NCBI GenBank assembly: GCA_028282195.1
Contig: JANQII010000341.1
Span: 1 to 43,793, forward strand
Direction: 5' to 3'
DNA: 43,793 nucleotides
Source of the DNA: Prolixibacteraceae bacterium
GTDB taxonomy: Bacteria > Bacteroidota > Bacteroidia > Bacteroidales > Prolixibacteraceae
Part shown: positions 14,145 through 30,516 of the stretch, in pieces
Layout: the number at the start of each line of letters is the position of its first letter
Position numbering within the stretch: position 1 is the stretch's first letter
Translations under genes and position numbers: made by a program
Notes under the pieces: generated by a model
Database searches by the model: none
Told to the model about the DNA's origin: nothing
Seen by the model: only the letters and a program-made list of their open reading frames with translations

Positions 14145-14174
14145 TTCCCCTTCTTTGGAGGGGCTAGGGGAGGC
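14145..14174. repeat. C-rich palindromic intergenic repeat, copy 2 (inverted)
   Basis: Reverse complement begins GCCTCCCCTAGCCCCTCC and resembles the copy at 14021-14050. It supplies the TAG stop and final residues (SLP) of the neighbouring propeller gene. Confidence 0.55.
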
Positions 14175-15351
14175 TCCCAAACACATAAATTCGGCCATCG
14201 TTTGCTCCGATGACTATTTTCCCATCATAAATGGCCGGAGAACTAACGATTTGGCTACCAATTTCATAGTTCCAAAGTTCATCACCATTGTTCAGTTGAT
14301 GAATATAGAGCATGCCATCCATTGTGGCTGTTATTATTTTTTTACCAGCTATAACAGATGAGGAGTTAATCCGGTTACTTAATCTTTTTTGCCATACCAG
14401 CTTCCCTGTTTTTTTATCCAGGCAATATAGGTTTCTATCTTCACTTCCAATAAGTATGAAATCTTCTGAAATTGCAGGTGAAGCAAGAAATGGTAGATTC
14501 TTTTCTTCATTGTCGTAAGTCCAGACTATTTTACCCGCTTCCAAATCGACACAGAAAAATTTTCCTTCATAATCGCCCAGATATGCATAATCTCCGGATA
14601 TAGCAGGAGATGAAGCAACATAGGTTTCAACTTCAATTTTACGGATAAGCTGACCTGTTTCTAAGCTGACTAAATGTAAAAATCCATCGCAGCCTCCAAA
14701 TACGGCAGCATTTTTATAAAGAGCAGGAGCTCCATTTATGAAATTGTCTGACTCGTATTTCCAAAGGCCTTGTCCGTTTTCAATATTTACTCCGTGCAAA
14801 TAATAATCATAACTTCCTACTGCTGCTATTTTTTGTCCATTATTATTTATCCAGTTGGCTGAACCTATGATTTGGTTGTCGGATATGTAGGCCCAGATAG
14901 AATCACCTTTCTCAGAGTCGAGGCAAAACAAATTGCCGTCAAGCGTTCCAAAAATTACGGAGTTATCTACGATTATTGCGGGGGCTTCAATTGCATTCCT
15001 GGCATTGAATTTCCATTTCAGGTTTCCTTTAAAATCAATTGCATAAAGATGTCCGTCAGTTGATCCACAATAAATTATTCCATCTTTTACTACTGGAGAA
15101 GATTTAATGTCGTCATCAGTTTCAAAAGAAAATAAGAGGGACGGTTTTTCAGGGATTTGTTCGTTCGTTGATGCCGTTAATTGATGGTCACCCCGGAAAA
15201 TTGGCCAATTGGTTTGGGCTGATAATTGTAATGAAAAAATGAATAAAAAAACGGTCATTATTGATGTCAATAATGATGAACGTCGGGCGGTAGCGGTGTA
15301 ATGCATTACACCGCTACATCGGGTTTCATCTATGTTTGTTATTTTTTTCAT
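14164..15351 (-). CDS. Secreted PQQ-like beta-propeller protein (propeller 6 of the redox operon)
   Basis: A 395-aa exported protein with at least seven propeller blades, seen as repeats of the type G-x-x-Y/F-C-L-D-x-x-x-G-x-x-x-W (IYCGSTDGHLYAID, LFCLDSEKGDSIW, LYCLDKKTGKLVW). This is the PQQ/BamB-like WD40 fold. No haem motif or vicinal Cys pair is present, so PQQ binding is not supported. The signal peptide (SIMTVFLFIFSLQLSAQ) is preceded by an unusual stretch, residues 13-24, which is encoded by a 28-bp perfect palindrome and its flank. The start could be ATG 15351, overlapping the flavoprotein stop by one base, or the Met at residue 16. Last gene of the redox operon. Confidence 0.85.
   Translation of the reverse strand: MKKITNIDETRCSGVMHYTATARRSSLLTSIMTVFLFIFSLQLSAQTNWPIFRGDHQLTASTNEQIPEKPSLLFSFETDDDIKSSPVVKDGIIYCGSTDGHLYAIDFKGNLKWKFNARNAIEAPAIIVDNSVIFGTLDGNLFCLDSEKGDSIWAYISDNQIIGSANWINNNGQKIAAVGSYDYYLHGVNIENGQGLWKYESDNFINGAPALYKNAAVFGGCDGFLHLVSLETGQLIRKIEVETYVASSPAISGDYAYLGDYEGKFFCVDLEAGKIVWTYDNEEKNLPFLASPAISEDFILIGSEDRNLYCLDKKTGKLVWQKRLSNRINSSSVIAGKKIITATMDGMLYIHQLNNGDELWNYEIGSQIVSSPAIYDGKIVIGANDGRIYVFGSLP
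15290..15317. repeat. Perfect 28-bp palindrome inside the propeller N-terminus
   Basis: Half-site GTAGCGGTGTAATG is followed directly by its reverse complement CATTACACCGCTAC with no spacer. It lies in frame near the 5' end of the propeller gene, upstream of the signal peptide. It looks like a dispersed palindromic repeat that was inserted. Confidence 0.85.
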
Positions 15352-16916
15352 TATAATTGTTCTTCCGTGTCAATTTTTGCTAACGCACCAGTTGGGCATT
15401 TTTCAGCAACTATCGCAGCTGTTTTTTCCAATCCCTTTTCAACCGTTTCATTAAATGGAACCCCAACACGAACATCAAAACCACGGCCAATAAAACTAAA
15501 ACCAAAAGTTTCCTGATGTTGTTGAGTTATTCGTACACAAATTCCACATTTAATACACTTTGATGGCTCAAAAATGATGTTTTGTGTCGAAAACTTCTTC
15601 TGAAAAGAAATCCGCTCATCATATTGAAAACGTTTTTGAACAGCTCCAAATTCATCCGACAAGTTACGAAGTTTACAACTTTCTATGTTCCTGCAATCGC
15701 AATGCAAACAACGGGTCGCTTCTGCTATTGCTTCTTCCTTAGTAAATCCTTTCGCTTTACCTTTTCCGGGTTGAAGCCTGTCGGTTTTATTCGATTCTTT
15801 TAAATATTCAGCAACCTCCAACTGCCTGAGTTTACCAAATTTTGAGTTAAACCGTTTGTGTAATCCATTTAGCTGATCGGTTCTGAAAAAGCTATCTACT
15901 ATTTGGGCAAGTTCCTTTCCTTGTCCAACAGAGCGAACTGCTAATTTAGAAGGACGTAACGCATTCCCAATGGCAAATACTTTTTCTTCGGAAGTTTGGT
16001 AAGTTTCCTTATTTATTTGAATACCGTTGGCTGAAGCTTGTAAACCCCATTGTTTTGCTAACTCAGGAGTGTTTCCAGTAGCAATAACAACAGCATCAAA
16101 TTCTGATTTAAGTTGCTGGTATTTTTCGAAATTGATCCCGGAATTAAATAGAATTTCAATTTCCGAATTTAAAATTGAATCAATTTCAGCATTTAAAACT
16201 TCTTTTGGTAGAACCTCTTCTTGAATCTTTAGAATATCGCCACCTGCTTTTTCATTCTTTTCATAAATTGAAACTGAATGCCCATATCTGTTAAGATAAA
16301 ATGCAGCAGCTAATCCTGCAGGGCCGGCTCCAATAATGGCAAGCTTTTTCCCCGTTTTTTGAACTGAAGTTTCTGTCTTTTTCCCTAGAAGTTCTTCGTC
16401 AGCAACAAAGCCCTTAAGCAAACAAATTGAAACGGGTTCGTCTGCTTGCTTTCGTCGGCATCCTGCTTCGCATGGGGCAGGGCAGATGCGGCCTAAAATA
16501 GCTGGTAGTGCAATATCCCGTTTAACAACCTCAATGGCTTTTTCAGAATTACCGGCAGCAATTAAGCGGTTCATCAATGGGATGTTCATATGGGCCGGAC
16601 AAACCAGCTGACAGGGTGCTTCGCAGTCGCCTACATGTTCACTTAATAACAATTCCAGAGCAGCTTTTCGGGATTCCCTGCACACTTCATCATCCGTAAT
16701 TAATTCCATCCCCTCAGCTGCAGGAATGGAGCACGAAGGTAAAAGTTTATCTGTTTTTGCATCTTTTACCAAACAAACCATGCAGGACGTAAAATGCTCA
16801 TTTCCTTCCAAATGGCACATGGTTGGAATTTCGATTCCAAGTTTCCCGGCTGCCTCTAATATGCTGGTACCTTCAGGTACTTCAATGGGTTTGTTATTTA
16901 TTTTAAGTTTGATCAT
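15351..16916 (-). CDS. 2Fe-2S/GltD-like flavoprotein lacking the NAD(P)H domain
   Basis: A 521-aa cytoplasmic Fe-S flavoprotein. Residues 1-110 form a NuoG-like start: C34, C45, C48 and C62 have the 2Fe-2S spacing, then H94, C98, C102 and C106. A GltD-type Cys-rich helical domain follows (ICPAPCEAGC, about 145-155). Then comes an FAD Rossmann motif (IIGAGPAGLAAAFYL, about 194-208) and the FAD-closing segment VFAIGN. The second Rossmann domain, which binds NADPH in GltD, NfnB or StnA, is absent: VVIATGN leads within about 35 residues into VFAIGN. The C-terminus has CIKCGICV plus a later CPTGAL Cys. It probably pairs with the NuoEF fusion upstream, as StnA does with StnBC. The partner replacing NADPH is unknown. 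Confidence 0.88.
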   Translation of the reverse strand: MIKLKINNKPIEVPEGTSILEAAGKLGIEIPTMCHLEGNEHFTSCMVCLVKDAKTDKLLPSCSIPAAEGMELITDDEVCRESRKAALELLLSEHVGDCEAPCQLVCPAHMNIPLMNRLIAAGNSEKAIEVVKRDIALPAILGRICPAPCEAGCRRKQADEPVSICLLKGFVADEELLGKKTETSVQKTGKKLAIIGAGPAGLAAAFYLNRYGHSVSIYEKNEKAGGDILKIQEEVLPKEVLNAEIDSILNSEIEILFNSGINFEKYQQLKSEFDAVVIATGNTPELAKQWGLQASANGIQINKETYQTSEEKVFAIGNALRPSKLAVRSVGQGKELAQIVDSFFRTDQLNGLHKRFNSKFGKLRQLEVAEYLKESNKTDRLQPGKGKAKGFTKEEAIAEATRCLHCDCRNIESCKLRNLSDEFGAVQKRFQYDERISFQKKFSTQNIIFEPSKCIKCGICVRITQQHQETFGFSFIGRGFDVRVGVPFNETVEKGLEKTAAIVAEKCPTGALAKIDTEEQL

Positions 16917-16920
16917 TCGA

Positions 16921-16969
16921 GTTTCGAGTTTCGGGTTTCGGGTTGCGCGTTTCGAGTTACGGGTTACGA
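16921..16969 (-). repeat. Heptamer array A (seven GTTNCGR units)
   Basis: Seven contiguous 7-nt units (GTTTCGA, GTTTCGG, GTTGCGC, GTTACGG and similar) read on the plus strand. The array begins four bases upstream of the flavoprotein ATG and supplies the last codons and stop of the four-helix-bundle gene. Confidence 0.85.
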
Positions 16970-17337
16970 GGTGGGGTTTTCCAGTTCTTTTCTACGTATT
17001 GAATGAACTTATTGATTTTTCCTCCTAAAAGGTTGTATTCTTCAATCAGTTCATTTAAACCAGTGTTTGAGAAATGCAGTTCGTTTATCATTGTCAATTG
17101 AGAAATGGCTTCATCACAAGAAGCATGAGCATAAACTAAAAACCGAATAAAATCATCCTTGTACCTTCTTCTTCCATAACCTTCAACAATATTATCTTTT
17201 ATACTTTTAGTAGATTTTCTTACCTGGCTTCCTTGTTCGTAAAGTTCATATTTGAGCAAATCCATTGTCATTCTGTTGACTTTGATGGCTTGTCCATAAG
17301 CTAGTTGATATATGTCGAGGTCTTTATAGCTTTTCAT
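16957..17337 (-). CDS. Four-helix-bundle protein (S23/Avd-like family)
   Basis: A 126-aa protein of the 23S rRNA intervening-sequence (S23) four-helix-bundle family, related in fold to the Avd accessory protein of diversity-generating retroelements. Family hallmarks are the start with DLDIYQLAYGQAIKV, the central SIKDNIVEGYGRR (compare S-I-x-x-N-I-A-E-G) and the following FIRFLVYAHASCDEAISQL. No rRNA or reverse transcriptase is nearby. Heptamer arrays touch both ends: the last residues RNP and the stop codon lie in array A, and array B begins 8 bases upstream of the ATG. It interrupts the redox operon between nuoEF and the flavoprotein, so it was probably acquired separately. Its function is unknown. 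Confidence 0.88.
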   Translation of the reverse strand: MKSYKDLDIYQLAYGQAIKVNRMTMDLLKYELYEQGSQVRKSTKSIKDNIVEGYGRRRYKDDFIRFLVYAHASCDEAISQLTMINELHFSNTGLNELIEEYNLLGGKINKFIQYVEKNWKTPPRNP

Positions 17338-17345
17338 ATTTTCAA

Positions 17346-17380
17346 GTTTCGAGTTACAAGTTTCGAGTTACATGTTTAGG
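17346..17380 (-). repeat. Heptamer array B
   Basis: Five units with 7-nt period (GTTTCGA, GTTACAA, GTTTCGA, GTTACAT, GTTTAGG) between the DUF2971 fragment and the four-helix-bundle gene. It contains the stop codon of the fragment. Confidence 0.75.
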
Positions 17381-17624
17381 ATGGAGTTTTTGATTTTCTC
17401 CACCGTACTCTATATAAATCGTCGTATAGATAATCATACCAAGATACATCAATCTTAAATTTTGATGCTAAAAAATTCACAAGTTGTGTTATTTCATCAT
17501 TATAAATTCCCTTAAACGGATCATTAAATGTGGTAAAGGGAGCTGCATATATTTGGTTATTAACTAAAGACTTAACGTCCCTTTCAAATAATGCTTTATC
17601 ACCTCTATATTTATATACTTTCAT
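17376..17624 (-). pseudogene. Truncated DUF2971-like gene (N-terminal fragment)
   Basis: An 82-codon ORF starting MKVYKYRGDKALFERDVKSL and containing FTTFNDPFKGIYND. This matches the start of DUF2971 proteins (xYKYRS..., ...NDPFE), which are usually 250-350 aa and often associated with defence or mobile regions. Only the first quarter is present, and the reading frame ends inside heptamer array B. It is most likely a remnant rather than a working gene. It lies between arrays B and C as part of the insert in the redox operon. Confidence 0.65.
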
Positions 17625-17672
17625 AAAATTGTAAGTTGTTACTTTTTATAAACTAAACAACCAATCTTTAAC

Positions 17673-17714
17673 CTGCAACCCGTAACCCGCAACTCGAATC
17701 CCGCAACCCGAAAC
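17673..17714 (-). repeat. Heptamer array C (inverted GTTNCGR type)
   Basis: Six units reading CCGNAAC on the plus strand (CCGTAAC, CCGCAAC, TCGAATC, CCGAAAC and similar), that is GTTNCGG on the minus strand. It starts immediately after the stop codon of the NuoEF gene, and its orientation is opposite to arrays A and B. Confidence 0.85.
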
Positions 17715-20084
17715 TCATCTAACAATCACCGCATCAACCGGGCAAACCTGCCTGCAAGCGTCACATTTTATGCACAACTCGGTATTTATTTCATGCTTCT
17801 TATGTGGCTCAAACTTAATGGCATCAACCGGACATTTTTGTGCACACTTGGTACAGCCAATGCATTCATCGTTGATTGAATATTCTATTAAGCCTGCACA
17901 TTTTCCAGCCGGACAACAGCCTTCAATATGAGCTTCATATTCCTCGTAAAAATATTTCAATGTTGTGATGATCGGATTTGGAGCCGATTTTCCCAGGTTG
18001 CACAAACTTCCTTTTTGGGTCCAGTCTGCCAAATACTTCAGCTCTTCCAAGTCTTTCTTTGTTCCCGTTCCTTCTGTAATGCGGTTCAGAATATCAAGCA
18101 TGCGCTTTGTACCAACACGGCAGAAGGTACATTTTCCACAAGATTCATCCTGGGTGAAAGAAAGGAAATACCTGGCAATGTCTACCATGCAGTCGGTTTC
18201 GTCAAGCACCACTAAGCCGCCTGAACCCATCATTGCACCAACTTCAATGAGCGATTGATAATCGATTGGCGTATCGTATAGTTCTGCCGGAATACAACCG
18301 CCGGAAGGGCCTCCAACCTGAACCGCTTTAAACTTTTTGCCATTCTGAACACCGCCCCCGATTTCCTCAACAATTTCACGAATAGTGATTCCCATTGGAA
18401 CTTCAATCAATCCGCCACGGTTTACTTTTCCGGCAAGAGAAAAGACTTTAGTTCCTTTCGAATCGTTGGTGCCAATTTGGTTAAATTGATTTTCTCCTTC
18501 TTTGAAAATATAAGGAACCATGGAAAAAGTTTCAGTATTGTTGATCAGGGTAGGTTGCCCCCATAGCCCTTTTTTTGCCGGGAATGGCGGACGTACCCTT
18601 GGAAAACCACGGTTGCCCTCAATGGAAGCAATCAGTGCTGTTTCTTCTCCACAAACAAAAGCACCAGCTCCCTCATAAATTTGGATATCGAAGCTAAAAC
18701 CGAAACCTAATATGTTATCTCCCAAAAAGTTTTGCTCACGACAATTAATTAATGCCTGGCGGATTCGGTTAACTGCCAGTGGATATTCTGCCCGGATGTA
18801 AAAATAACCTTCATCAGCCTGAACGGCTTTTGCAGCAATTAGCATTCCTTCAATCACGCGGTATGGATAGGATTCCAAAAGCATTCGATCCATAAAAGCA
18901 CCTGGATCACCTTCATCGCCATTGCAAATCAGATACCTTTTGTCACCAGCTTCATTTTTGGTCAGCTCCCATTTCATTCCGGTTAAAAAGCCCGCACCAC
19001 CACGACCACGCAATCCGCTTTCTTTTACCTTTTGAATGATTTGCTCATCTTCCAGTTTCAACGCTTCGGCTAAAGCCTGAAATCCATCATTCCTTTTATA
19101 TTCTTCAATATCCAATGGATTAATAATCCCACGGTGTTCTGTTGCAATTGGTATTTGCCGATCCAGAAAATTGGAAACCATTTCATCGCGAACATCAATG
19201 GAATAACGTTCAACGGGTTCCCAAACTTCATCGGTCTGCACTTTCTCAAGCAGCTTATAAGCTTTGTTTGTAACCCGTTTAAACAGACTATCTGGTTTGA
19301 AATGTGTATCAATTATTTGACGAACTTCCTGTGGTTTTACTTTTGCATAAAGTTTGCTCTGTTTGTTTTCGTCAATCACTTCAACCAAAGGAACCTGGTG
19401 GCACATGCCCACACAACCAACATGTTTAAGCTGTACATTAATGCCTGTTCCAACAACTGATTCTTCAATTTCTTTTTTTACATCGTCGCTACCACTGGCC
19501 ACACAGCAAGAACCTAAGCCAATTCTAATTTCACCCTGAAATTCAGATTCACCTTTTTTTCTGAATGCTTTTTTCTTTCCTGTTTTACCTGCCTGACTTT
19601 CAAAATCATGAATGACAGTTTCAATCATATCAGTAGTGACATGCCCGTAAGTAACATCATCAATCTGCACAACCGGGGCTAAGGTACAGCAGCCAAGACA
19701 TGATACTTTGTCCAATGTATATTTACCATCTTCCGAAGTAATATTTCCATCTTTAAAATTGAAATGGCGTTTAAATGCATCATAAACCTGCATGGCCCCT
19801 TTTACATGGCAGGCGGTTCCGATACATATTTTTATCATGTGCTCCCCGACGGGTTGCATCCTGAATTGATGATAAAAACTGGCAACTCCGGTTATGTCTG
19901 CGGGGGTAATAGCTGTGATGTCTGCTAATCTTCTAAGCGATTCTTCAGGTAAATAGTTAAATTCATCCTGAATAGCTTGCAAGATTGGAATCAAAGCCTT
20001 TTTGGTATTGCCCTTTTCAGCAATAATTTCATCAGTGAGTAGTATGATATTTTTATTTTCTTCTGTCATTTCTTTTTTTATCAT
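17715..20084 (-). CDS. NuoE-NuoF fusion (HydC-HydB / BfuCB type NADH-binding Fe-S flavoprotein)
   Basis: A 789-aa cytoplasmic NADH dehydrogenase module. Residues 1-160 are NuoE-like, with 2Fe-2S ligands C87, C92, C129 and C133 (CIGTAC, CLGCC). Residues 185-260 are a second thioredoxin-like 2Fe-2S domain (GSCCVASG, VGCVGMC). The NuoF core follows: GLRGRGGAGFLTGMKW (NADH, about 357-372) and CNGDEGDPGAFMDR (FMN, about 387-400). After that come an SLBB segment and the 4Fe-4S motif ESCGKCTFCRVGT. The C-terminus has two ferredoxin motifs, CIGCTKCAQKCP and CIKCDACRQVCP. The extra C-terminal clusters and GDEGDPG loop fit bifurcating HydB/StnB more than complex I. ATG 20084 is used; ATG 20069 is an alternative. 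Confidence 0.92.
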   Translation of the reverse strand: MIKKEMTEENKNIILLTDEIIAEKGNTKKALIPILQAIQDEFNYLPEESLRRLADITAITPADITGVASFYHQFRMQPVGEHMIKICIGTACHVKGAMQVYDAFKRHFNFKDGNITSEDGKYTLDKVSCLGCCTLAPVVQIDDVTYGHVTTDMIETVIHDFESQAGKTGKKKAFRKKGESEFQGEIRIGLGSCCVASGSDDVKKEIEESVVGTGINVQLKHVGCVGMCHQVPLVEVIDENKQSKLYAKVKPQEVRQIIDTHFKPDSLFKRVTNKAYKLLEKVQTDEVWEPVERYSIDVRDEMVSNFLDRQIPIATEHRGIINPLDIEEYKRNDGFQALAEALKLEDEQIIQKVKESGLRGRGGAGFLTGMKWELTKNEAGDKRYLICNGDEGDPGAFMDRMLLESYPYRVIEGMLIAAKAVQADEGYFYIRAEYPLAVNRIRQALINCREQNFLGDNILGFGFSFDIQIYEGAGAFVCGEETALIASIEGNRGFPRVRPPFPAKKGLWGQPTLINNTETFSMVPYIFKEGENQFNQIGTNDSKGTKVFSLAGKVNRGGLIEVPMGITIREIVEEIGGGVQNGKKFKAVQVGGPSGGCIPAELYDTPIDYQSLIEVGAMMGSGGLVVLDETDCMVDIARYFLSFTQDESCGKCTFCRVGTKRMLDILNRITEGTGTKKDLEELKYLADWTQKGSLCNLGKSAPNPIITTLKYFYEEYEAHIEGCCPAGKCAGLIEYSINDECIGCTKCAQKCPVDAIKFEPHKKHEINTELCIKCDACRQVCPVDAVIVR

Positions 20085-20091
20085 GAATCAA

Positions 20092-20126
20092 AACTTCCAG
20101 CTTCTGGCTTCAAACTTCGAGCTTTC
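20092..20126 (-). repeat. Heptamer array D (NGAAGYY type)
   Basis: Five 7-nt units, on the plus strand AACTTCC, AGCTTCT, GGCTTCA, AACTTCG, AGCTTTC. It fills most of the gap between the stop of the membrane propeller gene and the start of the NuoEF gene. Confidence 0.75.
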
Positions 20127-20128
20127 AG

Positions 20129-22012
20129 TTATTTCCCAATGCAGTATAAGTTTTCAAATCCTCTTAAATAAATCTTACCATCTGAAAATGCAGGTGTGCA
20201 AGCTGCTTTTTCCCCTAATTCAGGCTCGGCAACCAATTGATATTCTTTTGCCAATTTAAAAATGTGTGTTTTACCACTCATATCAATGATGTAAACTTTT
20301 CCATCTGCTAGCATCGGTGAACCATAAAAACCGTCATCACATTCCTGCTCCCAGTATTTTGTCCCGTCTTTCGCATCGTAGCAAGCGATGACTCCGTAAC
20401 TGGTGGCAATAATCAATAGTCCATCGGCTGCAAGCGGGCTGGAAACTTCAGGAAGGTACTCACTTTCTTCCCAAATGGTTTCACCGGTTTTAACATCAAT
20501 TGCCGCGAGTGTTGCATATTCATTTGCAGCATAAGCTATTCCATCAGCATAACCAACCGAAGGTCCAACTTCGCCCATCATACAGTCGACTTCCCAAAGC
20601 TTTTCTCCGGTATCCGGATTATAGGAAATGACAAGTGGTTCAGCAGATAAAATCAGTTGAGCACCTTCTCCAGAGTCTATTAATACCGGTGAAGCCCATG
20701 AAATTCGGACACCGGTTCTAACTTTTTCCCAAGCCTTTTCCCCTGTTGAGGTGTTGAATGCGAACACTTTTCCTCCTTTGTTGGTGTCGTACTGAACAAT
20801 GAGCTTGTCTTTATAAATAATGAGAGAAGAAGAATGTCCGTAATGATTATCAGGTACACCCAGGTTTTTTGCCCAAAGTCGCTTGCCATCCATGTCGAGC
20901 GATATTAGATCACCACTTCCGAAAATGGCAAAAACAGCTTGTCCGTTCGTGGCTACAGAAGGTGCCGCAAGGCCTGTGTCATCGGTTGTTTGTGGCATTG
21001 TTGCAGGTGATCCCGGAATATTGTCGGCATTAACCTGCCAAATTAGATCACCTGTATTTTTGTTGTAGCAATAAACCTGGCGGGCTTCTTCATCAGCACC
21101 GGTAATAAATAGTTTGTCACCCCAGATAATTGGGGAATTGTAACCATGTTTAGGAGGCTTAATTTTCCAAAGAATATTCTCACCATTTGCACCATCCCAA
21201 GTCTCAGGTATATTTGTTTGGAATGCAATTCCATTAGTCAGGGCACCACGGAAGAATGGGTAATTTTTATTCAATTCTTCTTGAGAAACTATTTTTGAAG
21301 CAGTTCCCGATAACGGTTTTTCTACTGGTTGGGTTTTTTGTTCTTGTTCCGTTTTTGTTTCAGACTGGGAAGTTTCTGTAGTTGTGCTTTCTTGTTGTTC
21401 CCGAACTTCATTTTCAACTATTGGGGCAGTTTGAGCCTCGGCACTTTCTGTACCGGGTTCATTAACCACAACTTCCTGATCTGGTTGAGTGGTTTCTGGT
21501 GTAACTGCAGAATCAGCTATCAATTCAGGCTCATAAGTATCAAGGGCATTATAAGAAAGAAAACCAGATAAAAGAGCCAGTACAACAAGTCCGGCACCAA
21601 CATAAACCACCCACTTTCTGGCTAATTGTTTATCGAGGAACGGATTCTTTTCAATTCCTTCCAGTTCATCTAATTTTGATTTTAATGAATTTTGATAACG
21701 GATTGCCAGAATAAAAATAATAATACCAAACACTAATAAATATGCTCCGATACGAATTTGCCACTGGCTGGTGAAATAAGCTTTGCGAATAAGCAAATCC
21801 AATGCACGTATATCTTCTTTTAATGCTTCGTCCCGGGGGGTATCGTGTAGTCTTTCCACTAAGGTATTTAACGCATCACTTTCAAGCGGATCAACACTTT
21901 TAAACTGAAGGTAATTGGCGATTAGCATTACACAAATAATAATGCTAAAACCGCTCGCTATCCAGGCTATCGTTTTTGCAATATTTATTTTGTCTTTTGT
22001 TGGTATTGTCAT
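20129..22012 (-). CDS. Membrane-anchored PQQ-like beta-propeller (propeller 5)
   Basis: A 627-aa protein with three predicted TM helices: about 13-32, 88-107 and 134-152 (WVVYVGAGLVVLALLSGFLSY). A linker rich in Glu, Thr, Gln and Pro follows (about 160-240). A C-terminal beta-propeller (about 250-627) has blades such as VYCYNKNTGDLIW, VFAFNTSTGEKAW and IACYDAKDGTKYW. The topology places the propeller on the outer side of the inner membrane if the N-terminus is cytoplasmic. It sits directly upstream of the NuoEF gene and may tether the extracytoplasmic propellers to the membrane complex, which is inference. No CxxCH haem motif is present. PQQ binding is not established. Confidence 0.88.
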   Translation of the reverse strand: MTIPTKDKINIAKTIAWIASGFSIIICVMLIANYLQFKSVDPLESDALNTLVERLHDTPRDEALKEDIRALDLLIRKAYFTSQWQIRIGAYLLVFGIIIFILAIRYQNSLKSKLDELEGIEKNPFLDKQLARKWVVYVGAGLVVLALLSGFLSYNALDTYEPELIADSAVTPETTQPDQEVVVNEPGTESAEAQTAPIVENEVREQQESTTTETSQSETKTEQEQKTQPVEKPLSGTASKIVSQEELNKNYPFFRGALTNGIAFQTNIPETWDGANGENILWKIKPPKHGYNSPIIWGDKLFITGADEEARQVYCYNKNTGDLIWQVNADNIPGSPATMPQTTDDTGLAAPSVATNGQAVFAIFGSGDLISLDMDGKRLWAKNLGVPDNHYGHSSSLIIYKDKLIVQYDTNKGGKVFAFNTSTGEKAWEKVRTGVRISWASPVLIDSGEGAQLILSAEPLVISYNPDTGEKLWEVDCMMGEVGPSVGYADGIAYAANEYATLAAIDVKTGETIWEESEYLPEVSSPLAADGLLIIATSYGVIACYDAKDGTKYWEQECDDGFYGSPMLADGKVYIIDMSGKTHIFKLAKEYQLVAEPELGEKAACTPAFSDGKIYLRGFENLYCIGK

Positions 22013-22020
22013 TTTCTGGT

Positions 22021-22069: not shown

Positions 22070-22104
22070 AATATTAAAACGTTTATTCTTTGACTCTCCC
22101 CCTT

Positions 22105-23455: not shown

Positions 23456-23464
23456 TTGGTTTTT

Positions 23465-24049
23465 TTAGGCGTGGTCATCTCCGGCAGTAAAGTCTCCCTT
23501 AATTAAATAGGGTTGGCTGGCAGGAACCCTTTCAAATGCATCAGCAGGACAAACCCTGGCGATTGAACATTCATTACAATTTACGCACAAATTATGACGT
23601 ACCTGTAAATGCAATGAGCCGTTTCCGAAAGCTGTACAGCCGGCAACGCATTTAGCACATCCAAAGCATAAATCTTCAATAATTTCATATTCAAAATAAG
23701 GTTCTTCTACAAATTTTCTTTTAATGGCAGCAGTCGGGCAAAGTTGATTCTCAGCAGCAGTTGACAATTCATTGGCATTTGGTTTCAGGTAACCTCCGCA
23801 TAAGTCGCAATAGCCACAAAGGGCGTAAGCATGTACACACTTCACGGCAGAAGGGCTCACTACGCAATGATCAGCACATCTTCCGCAGGAGACACACTTA
23901 AATGGGTCTAACTGCCAAACATAATCATCTGCATTTACCCTAAGAGCTGAAATACCAGCCACTCCTGCTATAGAAAGTCCAAGAGAAAGGCGCATACCTT
24001 TCTGGATAAATTCCCGACGATTACTTTTATTTTTTTCTTTATTACTCAT
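23465..24049 (-). CDS. Tat-exported ferredoxin with multiple 4Fe-4S clusters
   Basis: A 194-aa protein with a Tat signal (NRREFIQKGMRLSLGLSIAGVAG). It resembles the NrfC/DsrO/NapG-type electron-transfer ferredoxins. Cys motifs in order: CVSCGRCADHC (about residue 52), a CVHAYALCGYCDLCGG segment, LCPTA, LCFGCAKCVAGC, and CVNCNECSIARVC with a following CPADA-like Pro. These can hold about four clusters. It overlaps the preceding small gene by 8 bases and is followed 9 bases later by the membrane polyferredoxin, its likely electron partner. NapG/NapH pairing is the closest known analogue. Confidence 0.85.
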   Translation of the reverse strand: MSNKEKNKSNRREFIQKGMRLSLGLSIAGVAGISALRVNADDYVWQLDPFKCVSCGRCADHCVVSPSAVKCVHAYALCGYCDLCGGYLKPNANELSTAAENQLCPTAAIKRKFVEEPYFEYEIIEDLCFGCAKCVAGCTAFGNGSLHLQVRHNLCVNCNECSIARVCPADAFERVPASQPYLIKGDFTAGDDHA

Positions 24050-24233
24050 TCTTCTTACTCTCTAAAGCTTTATCCAAATTACATTTCTTGTATTTAGAGC
24101 AAGCCTTGCATTGTACATTTTCAGAACAGGTAAAATCAACCTTCTTCTGACTAATTAAAAGTCCGGTTCCTGCAAGCATCCCGGTAAAAATGCTTAGTTG
24201 AATCCCTCTTCTTATAAATTCTTTTCTATCCAT
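24042..24233 (-). CDS. Small Tat-like membrane-anchored protein with four cysteines
   Basis: A 63-aa protein. MDRKEFIRRGIQLSIFTGML resembles a Tat signal with one Lys replaced (RK rather than RR). A hydrophobic stretch follows, then CSENVQCKACSKYKKC, whose four Cys could bind one 4Fe-4S cluster or a metal. It overlaps the NHL gene upstream and the Tat ferredoxin downstream by 8 bases each, so it is a genuine and tightly coupled member of the operon. No family name comes to mind, and the role as a small redox or assembly subunit is inference. Confidence 0.75.
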   Translation of the reverse strand: MDRKEFIRRGIQLSIFTGMLAGTGLLISQKKVDFTCSENVQCKACSKYKKCNLDKALESKKNE

Positions 24234-25200
24234 TTTCTTTCAACTGAAAAATACGAATTTGTTTGCGGTTGAAGTCTAAAGCGTAGATCAGGCCATTTTC
24301 ATCTACAGCAACTTCTGCCGGCAAGCCGTCTTCATCAAATTGATCAGGTGCTGCAACTACCCCCATGTATTCGCCGTGCTGATCATATATTTTCATTCTA
24401 AAAATACCTTTTTCGCTGGTAACGAACGAATTATCATTCATAATCGCCATGTGTGAAGGATTGCAACATCCACTAAATCCTTCTGTTTTTACGGAAGATT
24501 TAGTCCAGCTTGAACGCATAGCTCCATCAGCAGTATAGTTTTCAAAACTGTGACGACCGGGGTTAACTGCCCACAGATAACCTTCTTCGCTTAAAGCAAC
24601 ATCAAAATACGGACTGGGTATCACATATCCGGGAACAGCTTTATCATCATTTTTTTCTCCAATCCGTGAGATAATTTTGCCGTCTTTGGAGCATTTATAA
24701 ATAACCCGGTTGCCTGCATCAGCAACATAAACAAAGTCGTTAGAGACAGCCAGTGAAGTAATCACTGAACGATCACCAAACGAAGTCCAGTTTTGTATTG
24801 ATTTTCCATCCTTGTCAAAAACAGAAACTTTATTACGAAAACCAACCCATATGTCACCATTTAAAGAAGTAGTAACACAGGTAGGGGAAGAAGATAAAAT
24901 TGTTTTTCCCAGTTGCTCCCCATTCTTATTGAGTTGAATCAGAAAATCTTCGGCAACTAAAATAAGGGTGTCTTTCCATATCGTAATCCCTTTCGGCGTG
25001 GAAATATTTAATGGAATGGTTTTTATTTCGGAATATAGTATTTCAGAAGGATCCACTTTGGTGTACTCACTAATGTCGTAAGCATAAGGGTTTTCAATAT
25101 TCTTTCCTTTTTTATTAACCGTAAAATCACGTACAATAATAACAGCAATAGCAATTGCCATTACAATTAAAAGGATATTGATTATTTTTTTGTTTTTCAT
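24226..25200 (-). CDS. Membrane-anchored NHL-repeat beta-propeller
   Basis: A 324-aa protein with an N-terminal anchor (IINILLIVMAIAIAVIIV) and six NHL-type blades (for example GLIYALDFNRKQIRIFQ, NDFVYVADAGNRVIYKCS and GNIWVGF-like units). A conserved element GCCNPSHMAI (about residue 245) carries a vicinal Cys pair. I recall this pattern in NHL proteins encoded near Fe-S export genes, though I cannot verify that here. The gene overlaps the small four-Cys gene by 8 bases. NHL domains usually bind proteins, peptides or metals, so its role in the complex may be structural. Confidence 0.83.
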   Translation of the reverse strand: MKNKKIINILLIVMAIAIAVIIVRDFTVNKKGKNIENPYAYDISEYTKVDPSEILYSEIKTIPLNISTPKGITIWKDTLILVAEDFLIQLNKNGEQLGKTILSSSPTCVTTSLNGDIWVGFRNKVSVFDKDGKSIQNWTSFGDRSVITSLAVSNDFVYVADAGNRVIYKCSKDGKIISRIGEKNDDKAVPGYVIPSPYFDVALSEEGYLWAVNPGRHSFENYTADGAMRSSWTKSSVKTEGFSGCCNPSHMAIMNDNSFVTSEKGIFRMKIYDQHGEYMGVVAAPDQFDEDGLPAEVAVDENGLIYALDFNRKQIRIFQLKENG

Positions 25201-25206
25201 TTTCGT

Positions 25207-25268
25207 GTTACGTATTGCGCGTTACCTACCTAACGGTAGGCAGGCGAGTTTCGGGTTTCGGGTTTTAC
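25207..25268 (+). repeat. Heptamer array F (GTTNCGR type) split by a hairpin
   Basis: Units GTTACGT, ATTGCGC, GTTACCT are followed by the hairpin CCTACC-TAAC-GGTAGG at 25225-25240, then GTTTCGG twice. The hairpin appears to have been inserted into the array. Confidence 0.7.
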
Positions 25269-25307
25269 CTATCTGTATATTTGTTCATATTCATTATCCA
25301 CAACTTT

Positions 25308-25370
25308 ATCTGGAAGTTCCAATATCCAGTATCTAATATCCAGCATCCAGTATCTATTCCCCAATATCCA
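25308..25370 (-). repeat. Heptamer array G (TRGATNY type on the minus strand)
   Basis: Nine 7-nt units on the plus strand, mostly ATATCCA, GTATCTA and GCATCCA. It overlaps the stop codon and final residues of the propeller gene 25354-26775. It is the same sequence family as array E but in the opposite orientation. Confidence 0.85.
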
Positions 25371-26775
25371 GGCATACCATTGTTTTTGCATCTCTCATTA
25401 AAAGCCTTCCGTCGGCAATGGCAAGCGGGGCCCATGCATCATGACCATCAATAATTTTCTTTTGGGCAAGCTGAATGTATTGGTCCTTATCAGGCTTGAT
25501 CATTGTTAATGTCCCATCGTCGCTCAAAATGTACATTTTCTCATCTGCAATTATATACGGTCCCAAACCAAAACGGTTGGTTTTTCCTGAGGTCCATACC
25601 ATTTTAGTAACATCATCCGGATGTACACATACCAATTGGTTTCGGTTTGCCCCTGCATCTTTAGGTAAAATACCGATCATGTGCTCTTGCCAGACAACTG
25701 GTGTTTGTTGTTCGCTTGCCAGGCCTTCTTTGGGTTTATACTCCTGAAGTATTTCAGTTTTAAACTTTTCACCATCGGGCGTTACTTTAAGCATCATTCC
25801 TCCAGCTCCGTAACCGGCAGTCAGGAAAATACGGCCATCTTCAAAAATAACAGGGGAGGGGGCAACTACCGAATGGTTCCATTCATTGGTTTGCCAAAGC
25901 ACCTGACCTTCATCATCCCCTTCTGCAGAAACCCCGCAAATTCCACCATCAGCACTGTACACGTACATTTTCTTTCCATTCAAGGTCATAGGCATAATGG
26001 AAGAATGCGACATTTTCCATTGCATTGTATTGGGAGCCTCCCATATTTTTTCCCCGGTTTCAATATCAACGGCAATCATAATTGCTGATCCTCCCGGGGA
26101 AAGTATGGCTTTATCACCATCAATTAACGGACATTGTGCAGTATACCATTGTGGAAGTTCAGTTCCGTATTCTTTCATCATATCGAGTCCCCAAAGCAGG
26201 TTCCCTGTTTTACGTTCAACGCACATAACATGGCAACGAGGCCCAATGCTAAGTACATAATCTTCCGTAACTGCAGGAACTGTACGGGACATCCCATGGT
26301 TCCGCTTTACATGCACACCATAAGATCGTCTCCAGATTTCTTTGCCATCTTCCAGGGAAAAACACCGTAACGCATCTTCACGTTTTTCTTCATCATAGTC
26401 CAACAAGTAAACCTGCCCTTTGTAAATGGCTGGCCCTGCATGGCCTTCACCCAGTTCAAGTGACCACAGAATTTGTGGTTCTTCCTCTGACCATGAATCT
26501 TTTAATGGCGCAGTGTCTTTTTTGATGTTGTCAAAATCACTTCCCCGAAACCGGGTCCAGGTTCCATTCATTTCAGTTGACCTATTTTCAAACTTGATGA
26601 ATTTTTCTCCGATTCGAATGATTTCTTCAATCACTCCGGCTGATTGCCTGTTATCCTCTCCCGGAATGCTGGCTTGAAATGATGATGTGGGGTCTTTTAC
26701 CAACCAAAAAACAATACCAGCAAACCCAATCGCAATAGCGATTCCAACAACTATATTTTTAGATTTCAAATTCAA
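25354..26775 (-). CDS. Membrane-anchored PQQ-like beta-propeller (propeller 4)
   Basis: A 473-aa protein with one N-terminal TM anchor (IVVGIAIAIGFAGIVFWLV), a linker to about residue 70, and a propeller domain that starts TWTRFRGSDFDN. The WxxFRGxxx motif opens PQQ-like propellers in this operon. Blades include LRCFSLEDGKEIW, VMCVERKTGNLLW and MIAVDIETGEKIW. The C-terminal DIGE and stop lie inside heptamer array G. The start overlaps the stop of the upstream propeller by 4 bases (ATGA). The blade order WPAR-like lids of quinoprotein dehydrogenases are not seen, so a scaffolding or binding role is as likely as enzymatic activity. Confidence 0.87.
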   Translation of the reverse strand: MNLKSKNIVVGIAIAIGFAGIVFWLVKDPTSSFQASIPGEDNRQSAGVIEEIIRIGEKFIKFENRSTEMNGTWTRFRGSDFDNIKKDTAPLKDSWSEEEPQILWSLELGEGHAGPAIYKGQVYLLDYDEEKREDALRCFSLEDGKEIWRRSYGVHVKRNHGMSRTVPAVTEDYVLSIGPRCHVMCVERKTGNLLWGLDMMKEYGTELPQWYTAQCPLIDGDKAILSPGGSAIMIAVDIETGEKIWEAPNTMQWKMSHSSIMPMTLNGKKMYVYSADGGICGVSAEGDDEGQVLWQTNEWNHSVVAPSPVIFEDGRIFLTAGYGAGGMMLKVTPDGEKFKTEILQEYKPKEGLASEQQTPVVWQEHMIGILPKDAGANRNQLVCVHPDDVTKMVWTSGKTNRFGLGPYIIADEKMYILSDDGTLTMIKPDKDQYIQLAQKKIIDGHDAWAPLAIADGRLLMRDAKTMVCLDIGE

Positions 26776-28022
26776 TTTCCTTTTGCGATATTATAGACCT
26801 GCATCACATTGCCACGGCGCAGGAACAGTTTCCCATTATAAATATACGGATGGGACCAATGCGGCCCATCACCTTTTGTAAATTGAAATGAGCTTACCAG
26901 TTCAAATTCATCAGGATTAGCTTTTACCAAACCTATGAAACCATTTTTTTCTTCATAGCAATACAGCATCCCGTCAGCATAAATTATTGAACCTTTGTTT
27001 TTCCACTCATGCTCATATTTTATTTCCCCGGTATGCCAATTCATGCAAACCCATTTCCCATTACGGTTTCCATCCCAATTCGAAGCGTAAATATAATTGT
27101 CAACTTCTACTAAACCATGATGATGATTGTCTAAGGTGTCATTTTTGAATTTTTCAGAAACTGACTTTTTATGTTGATCAATTTTAAGCATTACTGACGG
27201 GAAATTATACCCTTTTGATAAAAAAACCTGATCTTCTTTCCAAAGAGGGGTATTGGTAAAAACCAGATTGGGCCTTCGTATATAATTGCCTGCATTAAAA
27301 TAATTGTATCTCCAGATAATTTCGCCATCATCCGGGTTAATAGCCATTAACTCGTTTGCAGTATTTGCTAAAATATACCGGGTATTATTATACTCATATA
27401 ATGTTGGGGAAGAATATGCCCGTTTGCCCCCAATGGGTTTACTCTTCCATTTTTCTTTTCCGGTCATTTTATCCAGAGCTACGATTGAGACCTGATCTCC
27501 TGAGGGGCAGCAAATTACCATGTCATCAACTATAAGAGGGGATTCAGATACTCCCCAGACATGCCAGTTTGCCGAATAGTCTTTATCTACATTTCTTTTC
27601 CAGAATATTTCACCGTTTTCAGCATTGATGCAGGCCAGTTCACCAATTCCACTGGTTACATATACCCGGTTGCCATCAATGGTTGGTGAACAACGTGAGT
27701 TTGGGAATGATTTTTTCCAGGATTCCCCGTAAGCGATTTGCCACTTAATATGTCCGTTGTAACCGATACAGGAAAGATAGTCCATGGTATCAATCATTCC
27801 GGTAACAAAAATTGCTTCATCATTTGCAATCACCGATGAATATCCTTTTCCAAGGCTATCTACTTCAAGCAATAATTCGGGTCCATTTTCCGGCCATTCT
27901 TTCAATAAATTTGTATCTGGAAACTTCCCGTTTCTTTCCGGTCCCCTGAATTGAGCAATCTGAGCATTCAATGTAAAAGGAAATATCAGAATAATTTGTA
28001 TAAGAATTACCAGAAGTTTCAT
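26772..28022 (-). CDS. Secreted PQQ-like beta-propeller (propeller 3)
   Basis: A 416-aa exported protein with a signal peptide (MKLLVILIQIILIFPFTLNAQ) followed by QFRGPERNGKF and the propeller. It is a clear tandem paralogue of the gene at 28019-29281: both share KEWPxNGPEL, VDSLGKGxSSVIA and WKKSFPxxR. Blade motifs include LACINAENGEIFW and LMAINPDDGEIIW. The start and stop codons overlap the neighbouring propeller genes by 4 bases. No metal- or haem-binding motif stands out. It belongs to the BamB/PQQ-like superfamily, with function unknown. Confidence 0.87.
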   Translation of the reverse strand: MKLLVILIQIILIFPFTLNAQIAQFRGPERNGKFPDTNLLKEWPENGPELLLEVDSLGKGYSSVIANDEAIFVTGMIDTMDYLSCIGYNGHIKWQIAYGESWKKSFPNSRCSPTIDGNRVYVTSGIGELACINAENGEIFWKRNVDKDYSANWHVWGVSESPLIVDDMVICCPSGDQVSIVALDKMTGKEKWKSKPIGGKRAYSSPTLYEYNNTRYILANTANELMAINPDDGEIIWRYNYFNAGNYIRRPNLVFTNTPLWKEDQVFLSKGYNFPSVMLKIDQHKKSVSEKFKNDTLDNHHHGLVEVDNYIYASNWDGNRNGKWVCMNWHTGEIKYEHEWKNKGSIIYADGMLYCYEEKNGFIGLVKANPDEFELVSSFQFTKGDGPHWSHPYIYNGKLFLRRGNVMQVYNIAKGN

Positions 28023-29281
28023 AAAACTAATTTACCAGAACTTGCAATATTATAAACCTGCATTACATTGCCGTGTCGCAGGAATAATTTTCCATTGTAA
28101 ATATACGGATGAGACCAGTGAGGGCCACTGCCTTTTTCAACTTTAAATGAACTGACTACTTCAAAACCCTTAGGGTCAGGCTTAACAAGCCCTACGTTAC
28201 CACTTTTTTCTTCATAGCAATATAACATCCCATCGGCATAAACCATCGATCCTTTATTCACCCATTCATTTACGTATTCAATCTCACCGGTTAACCAATT
28301 CATACAAGCCCACTTACCGGTTCGGTTACTTTTCCAAATTGAGCTGTAAAGATAGCCATCATGCTCAATAAGTCCGTGATGGTGATTGTCAATAGTTTGG
28401 TCAACAAATTTTTCAGAAACTGAAGTTCCAAGAGAATCAACTTCTAACATTACAGCAGGGTAATCATATCCCATTGAAAGGAAAATCTGATTGTCTTTCC
28501 ACGTAGGTATATTGGTCCAGATCAGGCCGGATTGCCACTTCCAATCAGCTAGTTCATAATAATTATACCTCCACACAACCTCACCGTTTTCAGGACGAAT
28601 AGCCATTAAATAATTGGCTGTATTCGCCAAAATGTAACGACTACCGTTGTATTCATATATGGTAGGGGAACTATAAGCTCTCTGTCCGCCTACTGATTCA
28701 GTTTTCCATATCTCTTCACCTGTAAGTTTGTCAAATGCGACAATTGATGTTTCTTTTCCCCCGGGGGAACAGATTACCATATTGTCAATGATCAAAGGGG
28801 ATTCTGAAACACCCCAAATATGCCAGTCTGAAGCATAGTCTTTGTCTACATTTTTTTTCCAGGAAATATTTCCGGTTTCAGCATTCATGCAAACCAGTTC
28901 CCCAATGCCGCTAATTACATAGATTCGATCATCTTCAACTGTAACAGAACTTCTGGTGTCAGGAAATGATTTCTTCCATGCTTCACCATATGGAATTTGC
29001 CACTTTTTATTTCCATCATAATCAATGCATGTCAGGTAATCCAATGTATCGATCATTCCGGTTACATAAATGTATTTATCGGTTGCAATTACGGAAGAAA
29101 ACCCTTTTCCTAAACTATCTACTTCCATAAAAAGCTCAGGACCATTCTTCGGCCATTCTTTGAGCAAATTAGTACATTCAAACTTGCCATCACGGTTTGG
29201 CCCTCGGAATTGAAAAACCTGTGCGTTTATCAGTAATGGACAAACAAGAATCAGTACTATAGATAATAATCTTGATTTCAT
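28019..29281 (-). CDS. Secreted PQQ-like beta-propeller (propeller 2)
   Basis: A 420-aa exported paralogue of the downstream propeller, with signal peptide MKSRLLSIVLILVCPLLINAQ and FQFRGPNRDGKF at the start of the domain. Blades include YLTCIDYDG, LVCMNAETGNISW and LMAIRPENGEVVW. It overlaps the next gene by 4 bases (ATGA coupling) and starts 23 bases after the first propeller gene. The divergence from its paralogue is greatest in loops, as expected if each binds a different partner. No catalytic signature is seen. Confidence 0.87.
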   Translation of the reverse strand: MKSRLLSIVLILVCPLLINAQVFQFRGPNRDGKFECTNLLKEWPKNGPELFMEVDSLGKGFSSVIATDKYIYVTGMIDTLDYLTCIDYDGNKKWQIPYGEAWKKSFPDTRSSVTVEDDRIYVISGIGELVCMNAETGNISWKKNVDKDYASDWHIWGVSESPLIIDNMVICSPGGKETSIVAFDKLTGEEIWKTESVGGQRAYSSPTIYEYNGSRYILANTANYLMAIRPENGEVVWRYNYYELADWKWQSGLIWTNIPTWKDNQIFLSMGYDYPAVMLEVDSLGTSVSEKFVDQTIDNHHHGLIEHDGYLYSSIWKSNRTGKWACMNWLTGEIEYVNEWVNKGSMVYADGMLYCYEEKSGNVGLVKPDPKGFEVVSSFKVEKGSGPHWSHPYIYNGKLFLRHGNVMQVYNIASSGKLVL

Positions 29282-29304
29282 TGTTTTCGGCTGGTTTTTG
29301 TTTT

Positions 29305-30516
29305 CTATTTTGAAATTTTATAAGCAATCAAAGCATTTCCATGACGTACGTACAACACATTATTGTGCACAACCGGATGTGCCCAGTGTTGTGCAGAACC
29401 ATGCTGGACTTTGGTTTTTGAAATAATATCTAATTTCTCCGGATTGGGGTTAACCAAAGCAAGTTCACCCCGATCGGAATAGATAATGAATTTATCTCCG
29501 GCCATAATAATAACACCATTTCCTAACTCAGTGCTTTTAAATTTTTCTTCTCCTGTTTCCCAGTCAAGACAGTACCAGCCTCTTTTTCTATGACCAGAGC
29601 TATAGACATATCCGTCATGAATAATTGCACCACCCATCTGGTTGTCCATTTTCTCAGTGCTCCATGCTTTTTCAATTGCGGAGCCGTCTTCAGTTAAATT
29701 TAAACGTACACAGCCTTGTCCATAACCACTAAAGCATAATAATGCGTTGTTGTCGTAAATAACCGTATTTGGATGAATTGAGTATTGATTGGTATGCGGA
29801 TAACTCCAAAGCATTTTCCCGTTTGAAGCATCAAGTCCGATGATATGATGTGCTGTATGGGTAACAAAAAGTTTACGGGATGGAAAATTAATGATTTTTG
29901 GGGTACAATAGGACGATTTTTCCTTTTTTGCAGCAGAAGACCAAATGGTATTTCCTGTAATACGATCAAGGGCAACAATATTATTTTCTTCTCCACCCAC
30001 ACTAACAAAAAGTTTTTCACCATCAACAAGCAATGATTCAGTTACTCCCCAATGAATGTTTCTCCCATTATAATCAGAAATATTCTTTGTCCATATTCTT
30101 TTTCCATCAGTTAGGTTCAGGCAAATTATTTCTCCGTGCCCGGTGTATAAATATGCCCGGTTATCAACAATTGTCGGTGTTGACCTGGTGCCATCATAAC
30201 TTTTGTCCCATTCCTTCGCATAATTATATTTCTTTTCGAGTGTTCCGTTTTCATTAAAAATAAAAAGTATTCCCTGGCCATCCAGCATACCAGTACAGTA
30301 AATTTTGCCATTTGCAAAAGCAGGTGATGAATGTCCTTCACCAAGTTTTTCAAAAGTCCATAAGATTTCTGGTCCTGTTTCAGGCCACTTTTGAAGCAAG
30401 TTGTTTACTTCGTATTTTGCTTCTGAATTAGCACCTCTCCATTGAGTTGCTTCCTGAGCAATAGCTGTACTTAGAATTAAAGTAAAAAGTAAAAGAAATG
30501 TCAATTGCCTAATCAT
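29305..30516 (-). CDS. Secreted PQQ-like beta-propeller (propeller 1, first gene of the redox operon)
   Basis: A 403-aa exported protein with signal peptide MIRQLTFLLLFTLILSTAIAQ and domain start TQWRGANSEAKYE. It is a more distant relative of the two following propellers (KWPETGPEILW, GEGHSSPAF). Blades include IICLNLTDGKRIW, IVALDRITGNTIW and IIGLDASNGKMLW. It is first in the operon, 27 bases downstream of a good Bacteroidetes promoter, so it sets the level of the whole cluster. Function is unknown. The lack of CxxCH and of a vicinal disulfide argues against a classic quinoprotein dehydrogenase. Confidence 0.87.
   Translation of the reverse strand: MIRQLTFLLLFTLILSTAIAQEATQWRGANSEAKYEVNNLLQKWPETGPEILWTFEKLGEGHSSPAFANGKIYCTGMLDGQGILFIFNENGTLEKKYNYAKEWDKSYDGTRSTPTIVDNRAYLYTGHGEIICLNLTDGKRIWTKNISDYNGRNIHWGVTESLLVDGEKLFVSVGGEENNIVALDRITGNTIWSSAAKKEKSSYCTPKIINFPSRKLFVTHTAHHIIGLDASNGKMLWSYPHTNQYSIHPNTVIYDNNALLCFSGYGQGCVRLNLTEDGSAIEKAWSTEKMDNQMGGAIIHDGYVYSSGHRKRGWYCLDWETGEEKFKSTELGNGVIIMAGDKFIIYSDRGELALVNPNPEKLDIISKTKVQHGSAQHWAHPVVHNNVLYVRHGNALIAYKISK

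Follow-up and report, generated by a model that had tools for sequence, protein, structure and literature searches.

Gene content and layout of the operon

Contig JANQII010000341.1 of a Prolixibacteraceae bacterium (Bacteroidota; assembly GCA_028282195.1), which was analysed as a single window of 43,793 nt out of a 5.84-Mb genome, carries on its minus strand an operon of propeller, iron–sulfur (Fe-S) and NADH-linked proteins. From position 30516 down to 14164, the genes follow each other as PQQ1, PQQ2, PQQ3, PQQ4m, NHL, C4, Fd, NapH, PQQ5m, NuoEF, a truncated open reading frame (ORF), an IVP gene, GltD-like and PQQ6 (Table 1). A sequence-only reading of the window had named the core genes, and these are indeed open minus-strand frames with the domains claimed; its six propellers are six PQQ_2-type proteins, to which the NHL protein adds a seventh propeller-type protein. 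The overlaps that it reported between neighbours are correct for junctions of 1, 4, 4, 8 and 8 bases, but the operon also has gaps of 9, 23, 44, 153 and 153 bases and one of 798 bases between NuoEF and GltD-like, where two inserted ORFs, the IVP gene and the truncated frame, were overlooked.

Table 1. Genes of the operon in the window, in order of position on the minus strand, with the inserted ORFs last
Feature	Position	Strand	Description	Evidence
PQQ1	29305..30516	-	secreted propeller of the PQQ_2 type; opens the operon	PF13360 87 bits
PQQ2	28019..29281	-	secreted propeller	PF13360 75 bits
PQQ3	26772..28022	-	secreted propeller, paralogue of PQQ2; lacking in some relatives	PF13360 84 bits
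PQQ4m	25354..26775	-	propeller with a single N-terminal membrane anchor, TTG start	PF13360 75 bits; hydropathy; invariant motifs
NHL-repeat protein	24226..25200	-	N-terminal anchor and GCCNP site	PF01436
C4	24042..24233	-	small exported protein, 63 amino acids, CX5CX2CX5C	four conserved Cys
Fd	23465..24049	-	ferredoxin with Tat-like RR signal	16 invariant Cys, enough for four 4Fe-4S clusters
NapH-like membrane polyferredoxin	22166..23455	-		PF12801; NapH profile 50.7 bits, under cut-off; Cys counts; hydropathy
PQQ5m	20129..22012	-	propeller with three N-terminal membrane segments	PF13360 111 bits; hydropathy
NuoEF	17715..20084	-	predicted fused BfuC-BfuB core	PF01257, PF01512, PF10589, Fer4; PDB matches; B2 signature
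GltD-like	15351..16916	-	predicted BfuA/StnC-like Fe-S protein lacking the NADPH domain, FAD domain degenerate	
PQQ6	14164..15351	-	secreted propeller, last gene of the operon	PF13570 206 bits
Four-helix 23S-rRNA-IVP gene	16957..17337	-	inserted, non-core	PF05635 74 bits
Truncated-looking ORF	17376..17624	-	inserted, non-core	open reading frame

Conservation of the operon across genomes

The operon is real and conserved. Among 61 related genomes, a search with Fd matched 39 at E ≤1e-3 and 33 at E ≤1e-60, while PQQ4m and a full-length fused NuoEF (query start ≤19, end ≥786, identity ≥53%) were each found in 33; the three lists, compared by eye, contain the identical genomes. A profile of the GltD-like protein recovered 31 of these 33 carriers at E ≤1e-130, and the remaining two (G020, G059) have a shortened GltD-like copy inside the operon. 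Five further matches to this profile are long frames of 1231-1246 amino acids (aa), which belong to the Stn-like type discussed below.

To describe the surroundings of Fd, 112 loci were fetched and 94 used after removal of repeated or unlabelled ferredoxins; 56 are covered, meaning that they extend over more than 5 kb before and more than 8.5 kb after Fd. Of the core genes, NapH and NHL are found in all 56, PQQ5m in 54, NuoEF and PQQ4m in 53 each, the GltD-like gene and a PQQ1-3-type propeller in 52 each, PQQ6 in 43 and C4 in 41; a glycosyltransferase (GT) gene is found in 33. Gene order is mostly maintained with short gaps: median distances between neighbours from PQQ1 to PQQ6 range from -11 to 53 bases, with 124 bases for NHL-Fd where C4 was uncalled, all of them lower bounds since our script starts each frame at the first possible start codon. 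As the same order recurs in many families, it lies beyond chance. An outcome that would have refuted the sequence-only reading, propellers and Fe-S genes in separate neighbourhoods, is not what we see, since the 33 of 61 genomes with one set are also those with the other, and the two sets adjoin in most covered loci. Trees of seven genes, built from 64 distinct loci with all seven at full length, agree with distance correlations of r 0.83-0.92, a range that common descent alone would also give.

On a broader scale, an order-level sample with the best eight candidates per genome scored contained Fd at E ≤1e-20 in 70 of 393 genomes. A sample named phylum-wide, also limited to the best eight candidates per genome, gave Fd in 1 of 395, the genome studied here, the rows shown coming from the same order or class. 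In a set of named genomes, 585 of the 589 pattern matches listed encode a relative. Cultured carriers, which make the operon testable, are Draconibacterium orientale (L101), Mariniphaga anaerophila (L085), Sunxiuqinia elliptica (L069) and Mangrovibacterium lignilyticum (L070).

Eleven extra genomes, picked from the order-level sample for their odd loci, were searched for fused NuoEF and PQQ4m. NuoEF was present in one piece in six (G721, G621, G513, G518, G539, G630) and as two adjacent pieces in G769; the full-length fusion was not found in G563, G728, G641 and G667, the last being 68% complete with a partial match of 63%. PQQ4m was present in nine of the eleven and not found in G728 and G641. 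Where the operon is broken, its parts are kept elsewhere in the genome: G513 has an Fd locus lacking NuoEF and PQQ4m and encodes both at another site, the GltD-like gene of G024 is likewise displaced, and G027 divides the set between one contig with PQQ1, PQQ3, PQQ4m and NuoEF and another with GltD-like, C4, Fd, NapH, PQQ5m and NHL, PQQ6 being seen in neither of the two fetched stretches.

NuoEF as the predicted core of a bifurcating enzyme

The Bfu family of electron-bifurcating enzymes is defined by its BfuB and BfuC domains and by an unusual cluster, B2, with a His ligand that is missing from non-bifurcating homologues; BfuB itself combines an FMN-binding 51K domain, SLBB, NADH_4Fe-4S and 4Fe-4S domains (PMC9304861). 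In NuoEF, PF01512 (151 bits), PF10589 (106 bits) and Fer4_21 (46 bits) score over their cut-offs, SLBB falls just under with 26.2 bits at a cut-off of 27, and the 2Fe-2S domain of BfuC-type NuoE (PF01257, 181 bits) is fused at the N terminus. The InterPro numbers of the family definition are taken to correspond to these Pfam names. B2 has five ligands, the fifth being Cys or Thr; among 73 distinct rows out of 85 NuoEF frames, the four ligands His719, Cys632, Cys724 and Cys729 are present in all 73 when aligned to HydB of the same genome. This His and the three Cys also occur in that HydB and in the Stn-like BfuB of two relatives, and are missing from the ordinary NuoF of the same genome. The best PDB matches are 9n5u_B (715 bits), 8oh5_B (683), 9bov_B (678) and 7t2r_B (651), from chains named NfnB, HoxF-like and HydB. 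By these sequence features NuoEF is predicted to be a Bfu core of the HydBC/StnAB kind, with BfuC and BfuB fused into one chain. As far as sequence goes, the bifurcation-type module of the sequence-only reading holds, and so does its NapGH-like pair.

A GltD-like protein that appears to have lost its nucleotide input

The same reading listed a GltD-like flavoprotein, and here our analysis leads to a correction, as this is no ordinary NAD(P)H flavoprotein. The protein carries PF13510 and PF14691, i.e. the 2Fe-2S and 4Fe-4S domains of the BfuA type, and aligns to residues 4-289 and 424-672 of 8oh5_C. We identify this chain as StnC because C114, Y117 and K170 sit where PMC10482914 places them. 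The stretch missing from the GltD-like protein lies in the NADPH-binding GltD part of StnC, its exact limits being those of our own alignment. Among 79 distinct rows out of 90 frames, each cut at 560 residues, the NADPH-binding domain occurs in none, the 35-residue interval at this place reaching no more than 37 residues in any row. Since the domain is absent from all rows, NADPH, the third substrate of Stn, is an unlikely partner, and we reject a working NADPH transhydrogenase.

The FAD site appears degenerate as well: GxGxxG is kept in 74 of the 79 rows, the Asp of the second motif in none (N in 55, S in 17, another residue or a gap in 7), and the equivalent of StnC R239 is Arg in only 3. 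In five rows (L060, L061, L166, L168, L169) the FAD domain is gone altogether, with the Cys of the 2Fe-2S, Fer4_20 and C-terminal clusters kept; the residues beside the FAD-proximal cluster, Lys168 and Cys165, are changed in exactly five rows, which by eye are these five. The cluster Cys, in turn, are nearly invariant: all 79 rows keep those of the N-terminal cluster and of the middle ones, and 77-78 keep those of the last. Loss of the NADPH domain, and in five rows of the FAD domain too, with retention of the Cys indicates that the nucleotide input is gone while the Fe-S path remains. Judged by its sequence, the protein thus appears to be a BfuA/StnC-like partner of NuoEF, degenerate toward an Fe-S adaptor.

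The membrane unit

NapH (110 of 126 rows used) has 11 Cys in 110 of 110 rows and four more in 109, and Fd (113 of 130 rows used) has its 16 Cys in every row. Seven invariant NapH Cys (98, 100, 142, 146, 194, 230 and 234) lie in or near the membrane, and a hydropathy count together with loop charges places both C-terminal ferredoxin motifs on the cytoplasmic side. C4, with its four Cys in 68 of 68 rows, has no match in Pfam or NCBIfam. In L162, one frame of 637 aa joins a Tat-type start, a C4 domain, Fd and NapH, the Fd part also lying within an open frame of 645 aa; this triple fusion argues for C4, Fd and NapH working as a single unit in which C4 and Fd lie outside. We thus find a membrane protein with CX3CP motifs and internal C-terminal ferredoxin motifs next to an exported ferredoxin, their sidedness being judged from hydropathy, loop charge and this one fusion. 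PDB profile searches with NHL, Fd and NapH gave generic propeller or ferredoxin matches only.

Propellers and the NHL protein

The propeller PQQ4m is highly conserved, and about 100 of its columns are invariant across 18 diverse sequences, apparently more than expected for a plain scaffold. In the NHL protein, Cys245 and Cys246 are present in 93 of 93 rows. A PDB profile search with PQQ4m returned generic propellers, including tetrathionate hydrolase at E 2e-4. Five of the six propellers (all but PQQ3) match TIGR03075 with 24-86 bits against a cut-off of 480, and we reject their identity as pyrroloquinoline quinone (PQQ) dehydrogenases in view of scores so far under the curated cut-off. A search for PqqC matched none of the 61 genomes, but none of 14 controls either. 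In one relative (L148, G016), two PQQ4m paralogues of 28-30% identity stand in a different gene neighbourhood.

A proposed route for electrons to the periplasm

We propose that the operon encodes a membrane-linked Bfu enzyme in which a NapH/NapG-like Fe-S wire, leading to propellers in the periplasm, serves as the third partner, and that this enzyme probably exports electrons, a reading to which we give about an even chance. NuoEF should exchange electrons with NAD(H) at flavin mononucleotide (FMN) and with ferredoxin at its C-terminal clusters. The GltD-like adaptor would dock on the cytoplasmic ferredoxin clusters of NapH, where StnC would take NADPH, and NapH, C4 and the Tat ferredoxin would carry electrons over the membrane as one unit, presumably on their Fe-S clusters. 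In the periplasm, the electrons would reach the two membrane-anchored propellers, the NHL protein with its invariant Cys pair and the secreted propellers, where a substrate would be converted and most likely reduced, catalysis possibly residing on PQQ4m or on the NHL Cys pair. All proteins may assemble into one complex. The weakest step is the direction: outward flow would merge NADH with reduced ferredoxin by confurcation, as analogy with NapGH suggests. A more specific version, which we hold only tentatively, gives the Bfu enzyme an extracytoplasmic third substrate: NADH and reduced ferredoxin would be merged in the cytoplasm, and low-potential electrons would cross on Fe-S alone, using the seven NapH Cys in or near the membrane and no quinone, haem or flavin, to keep the periplasmic ferredoxin reduced for the propeller enzymes.

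Both cytoplasmic pools, NADH and ferredoxin, are likely in use, since other genes of this genome encode an Rnf set (with an RnfC_N match) and, by eye, a HydABC-type hydrogenase and another NuoE/NuoF set (L001, L003, L004). RnfC does not discriminate, since it occurs in 31 of 33 carriers and is also common in non-carriers (23 of 28), and Rnf is unnecessary for the operon because the carriers G013 and G033 have no RnfC_N match.

But what if the electrons end in the membrane? As proposed for NapGH, NapH could be a quinone site, turning the system into an NADH/ferredoxin:menaquinone oxidoreductase with the periplasmic ferredoxin and propellers as structural parts or a side branch. We consider this unlikely, as it leaves unexplained why the 16 Cys of the exported Fd, the NHL Cys pair and the PQQ4m motifs are so strictly retained and jointly inherited. 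The flow could also be reversed, with a periplasmic substrate oxidised on the propellers and its electrons drawn into the cell, where bifurcation would pass them to NAD+ and ferredoxin. Bfu enzymes can work in both directions (PMC9304861, PMC10482914), NapH-like systems accompany oxidases as well as reductases, and the propellers are weakly similar to quinoproteins; they miss the curated PQQ-enzyme cut-offs by far, however, and we see no obvious periplasmic donor low enough for ferredoxin, even with bifurcation (near -400 mV, PMC9304861 Table 1), so that this reversal, too, is improbable to us.

Several observations weigh against our proposal of a Bfu enzyme wired across the membrane. No terminal enzyme is recognisable, and the B2 cluster has one residue fewer between its His and the following Cys than HydB does. 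In six of the 56 covered loci (L041, L052, L062, L071, L091, L108), one or more of PQQ4m, PQQ5m, NuoEF and GltD-like are missing from the stretch. G563 (92% complete), the sole discordant genome of good completeness, has PQQ4m and no fused NuoEF that our search could find, and the genome search found neither protein in G023, G728 and G641. No fusion of NuoEF or GltD-like with NapH was seen among the relatives' loci. In four loci (L062, L154, L155, L156), Fd and NapH form a trio with an NHL protein that likewise has the GCCNP site, and neither NuoEF nor a propeller lies in the stretch fetched, which for three of them spans only 5-9 kb; the trio therefore does not depend on a Bfu neighbour.

This trio and the lack of a NuoEF-NapH fusion would fit an operon that houses two separate devices, one a soluble NADH/ferredoxin enzyme of the Stn type with its partner in the cytoplasm and the other an envelope system made up of NapH, ferredoxin and propellers, as would the GT and the ATP-binding cassette (ABC) exporter that often follow (33 and 12 of the 56 covered loci). 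We regard this as very unlikely: Fd, PQQ4m and fused NuoEF share the same 33 of 61 genomes, NuoEF adjoins PQQ4m even in the split genome G027, and the operon shows no other recognisable third partner. In L159, moreover, a single frame runs from the GltD-like protein over a hydrophobic stretch into PQQ6, although this comes from one draft genome and may be an error.

Relation to known systems

One of the closest known systems is the Stn (Nfn-Bfu) transhydrogenase, whose StnAB has a similar NuoE/NuoF core with C-terminal ferredoxin-type clusters (PMC10482914). The GltD-like protein has 2Fe-2S and Fer4_20 domains in common with StnC, and 74 of 79 rows also share the lysine beside the FAD-proximal cluster (StnC K170). 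Unlike in Stn, NuoE and NuoF form a single chain, and the operon adds NapH, an exported ferredoxin and propellers; the GltD-like protein has 521 aa, compared with 1172 aa in StnC, and has neither the NADPH domain nor the long C-terminal part. True Stn-like sets, in which NuoE and NuoF are separate and the StnC-like protein measures 1230 aa, occur in L149 and L150, from G046 and G056.

A Bfu core working with a membrane partner has been proposed for Nuo-Bfu and Mbh-Bfu (PMC9304861). Here, however, no antiporter-type, NuoH-type or hydrogenase subunit is among the operon domains found, and the membrane partner is NapH-like. With NapGH and NosR/NosH-type export, the operon shares a CX3CP membrane polyferredoxin and a Tat-exported multi-cluster ferredoxin, yet the NapH-like protein scores 50.7 bits against a curated 213, the window ferredoxin has no NapG match, nitrate and N2O reductases and an FMN-binding domain are lacking, and an NADH-linked partner adjoins NapH. 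The propellers have PF13360 repeats like BamB and other PQQ-fold proteins; unlike BamB and PQQ dehydrogenases, they remain below the cut-offs, and PQQ4m has invariant motifs of its own.

We found no description of this cluster in open-licence PMC papers. The words NapH, propeller and GltD are absent from the main text of PMC9304861, and passages of PMC11406978 and PMC8238504 describe no such cluster, although the latter covers further export systems of the NapH-like kind and MsrQ-like clusters that contain a NuoF-like gene. Going by its proteins, the cluster is best called a Bfu-family variant joined to a NapGH-like pair. Seventeen Bfu clades were left without an assignable function and further third substrates were predicted (PMC9304861), and the operon is a concrete candidate for a Bfu third partner across the membrane. 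With the NADPH domain absent from every row and the FAD domain from five, the GltD-like protein illustrates how a nucleotide-binding input can turn into an Fe-S socket. If our proposal is true, electron bifurcation would reach the cell envelope directly.

Transcription signals, inserted genes and neighbours

The single promoter that the sequence-only reading placed at 30543-30573 is plausible but unproven. Exact consensus matches number 5 in the window, against 4.6 expected, with none in this region. The region contains TAAATTTG, which we take to resemble the Bacteroidota -7 box. A sigma-70-like match at 10 of 12 positions lies at 30554-30525, such matches being at background overall (58 against 50, standard deviation 7). 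Just past PQQ6, a hairpin of 10 pairs lies at 14046-14022, terminator-like sites in general again being at background (18 against 15). Rfam and tRNA scans gave no matches.

The IVP four-helix gene, which occupies the same gap in other relatives, is rejected as a subunit, as it occurs in just 10 of the 56 covered loci. It and the truncated ORF are flanked by 7-base-phase repeat arrays of the TTCGAGT/TTCGGGT type (window 16916-17714). The genes at 8143-14040, often found after PQQ6 in relatives, encode a GT4 glycosyltransferase, a LolD-like ABC ATPase and a permease with two FtsX domains, with a 249-aa ORF between the first two. They were rejected as core in view of the intervening hairpin and of the counts given above for the GT and the ABC ATPase, although some stretches stop short of these genes.

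In the Draconibacterium loci L101, L102, L105 and L146, two ORFs (351 and 241 aa) lie as a pair within the operon between PQQ1 and PQQ2; by eye, the pair in L101 resembles a sensor kinase and a LytTR regulator. The Bfu-less cluster of Fd, NapH and NHL adjoins a PhnD-like binding protein with conserved Cys, and in L062 also DUF4369. Elsewhere in the window, a tandem repeat with a 41-base unit in about five copies spans 41274-41491.

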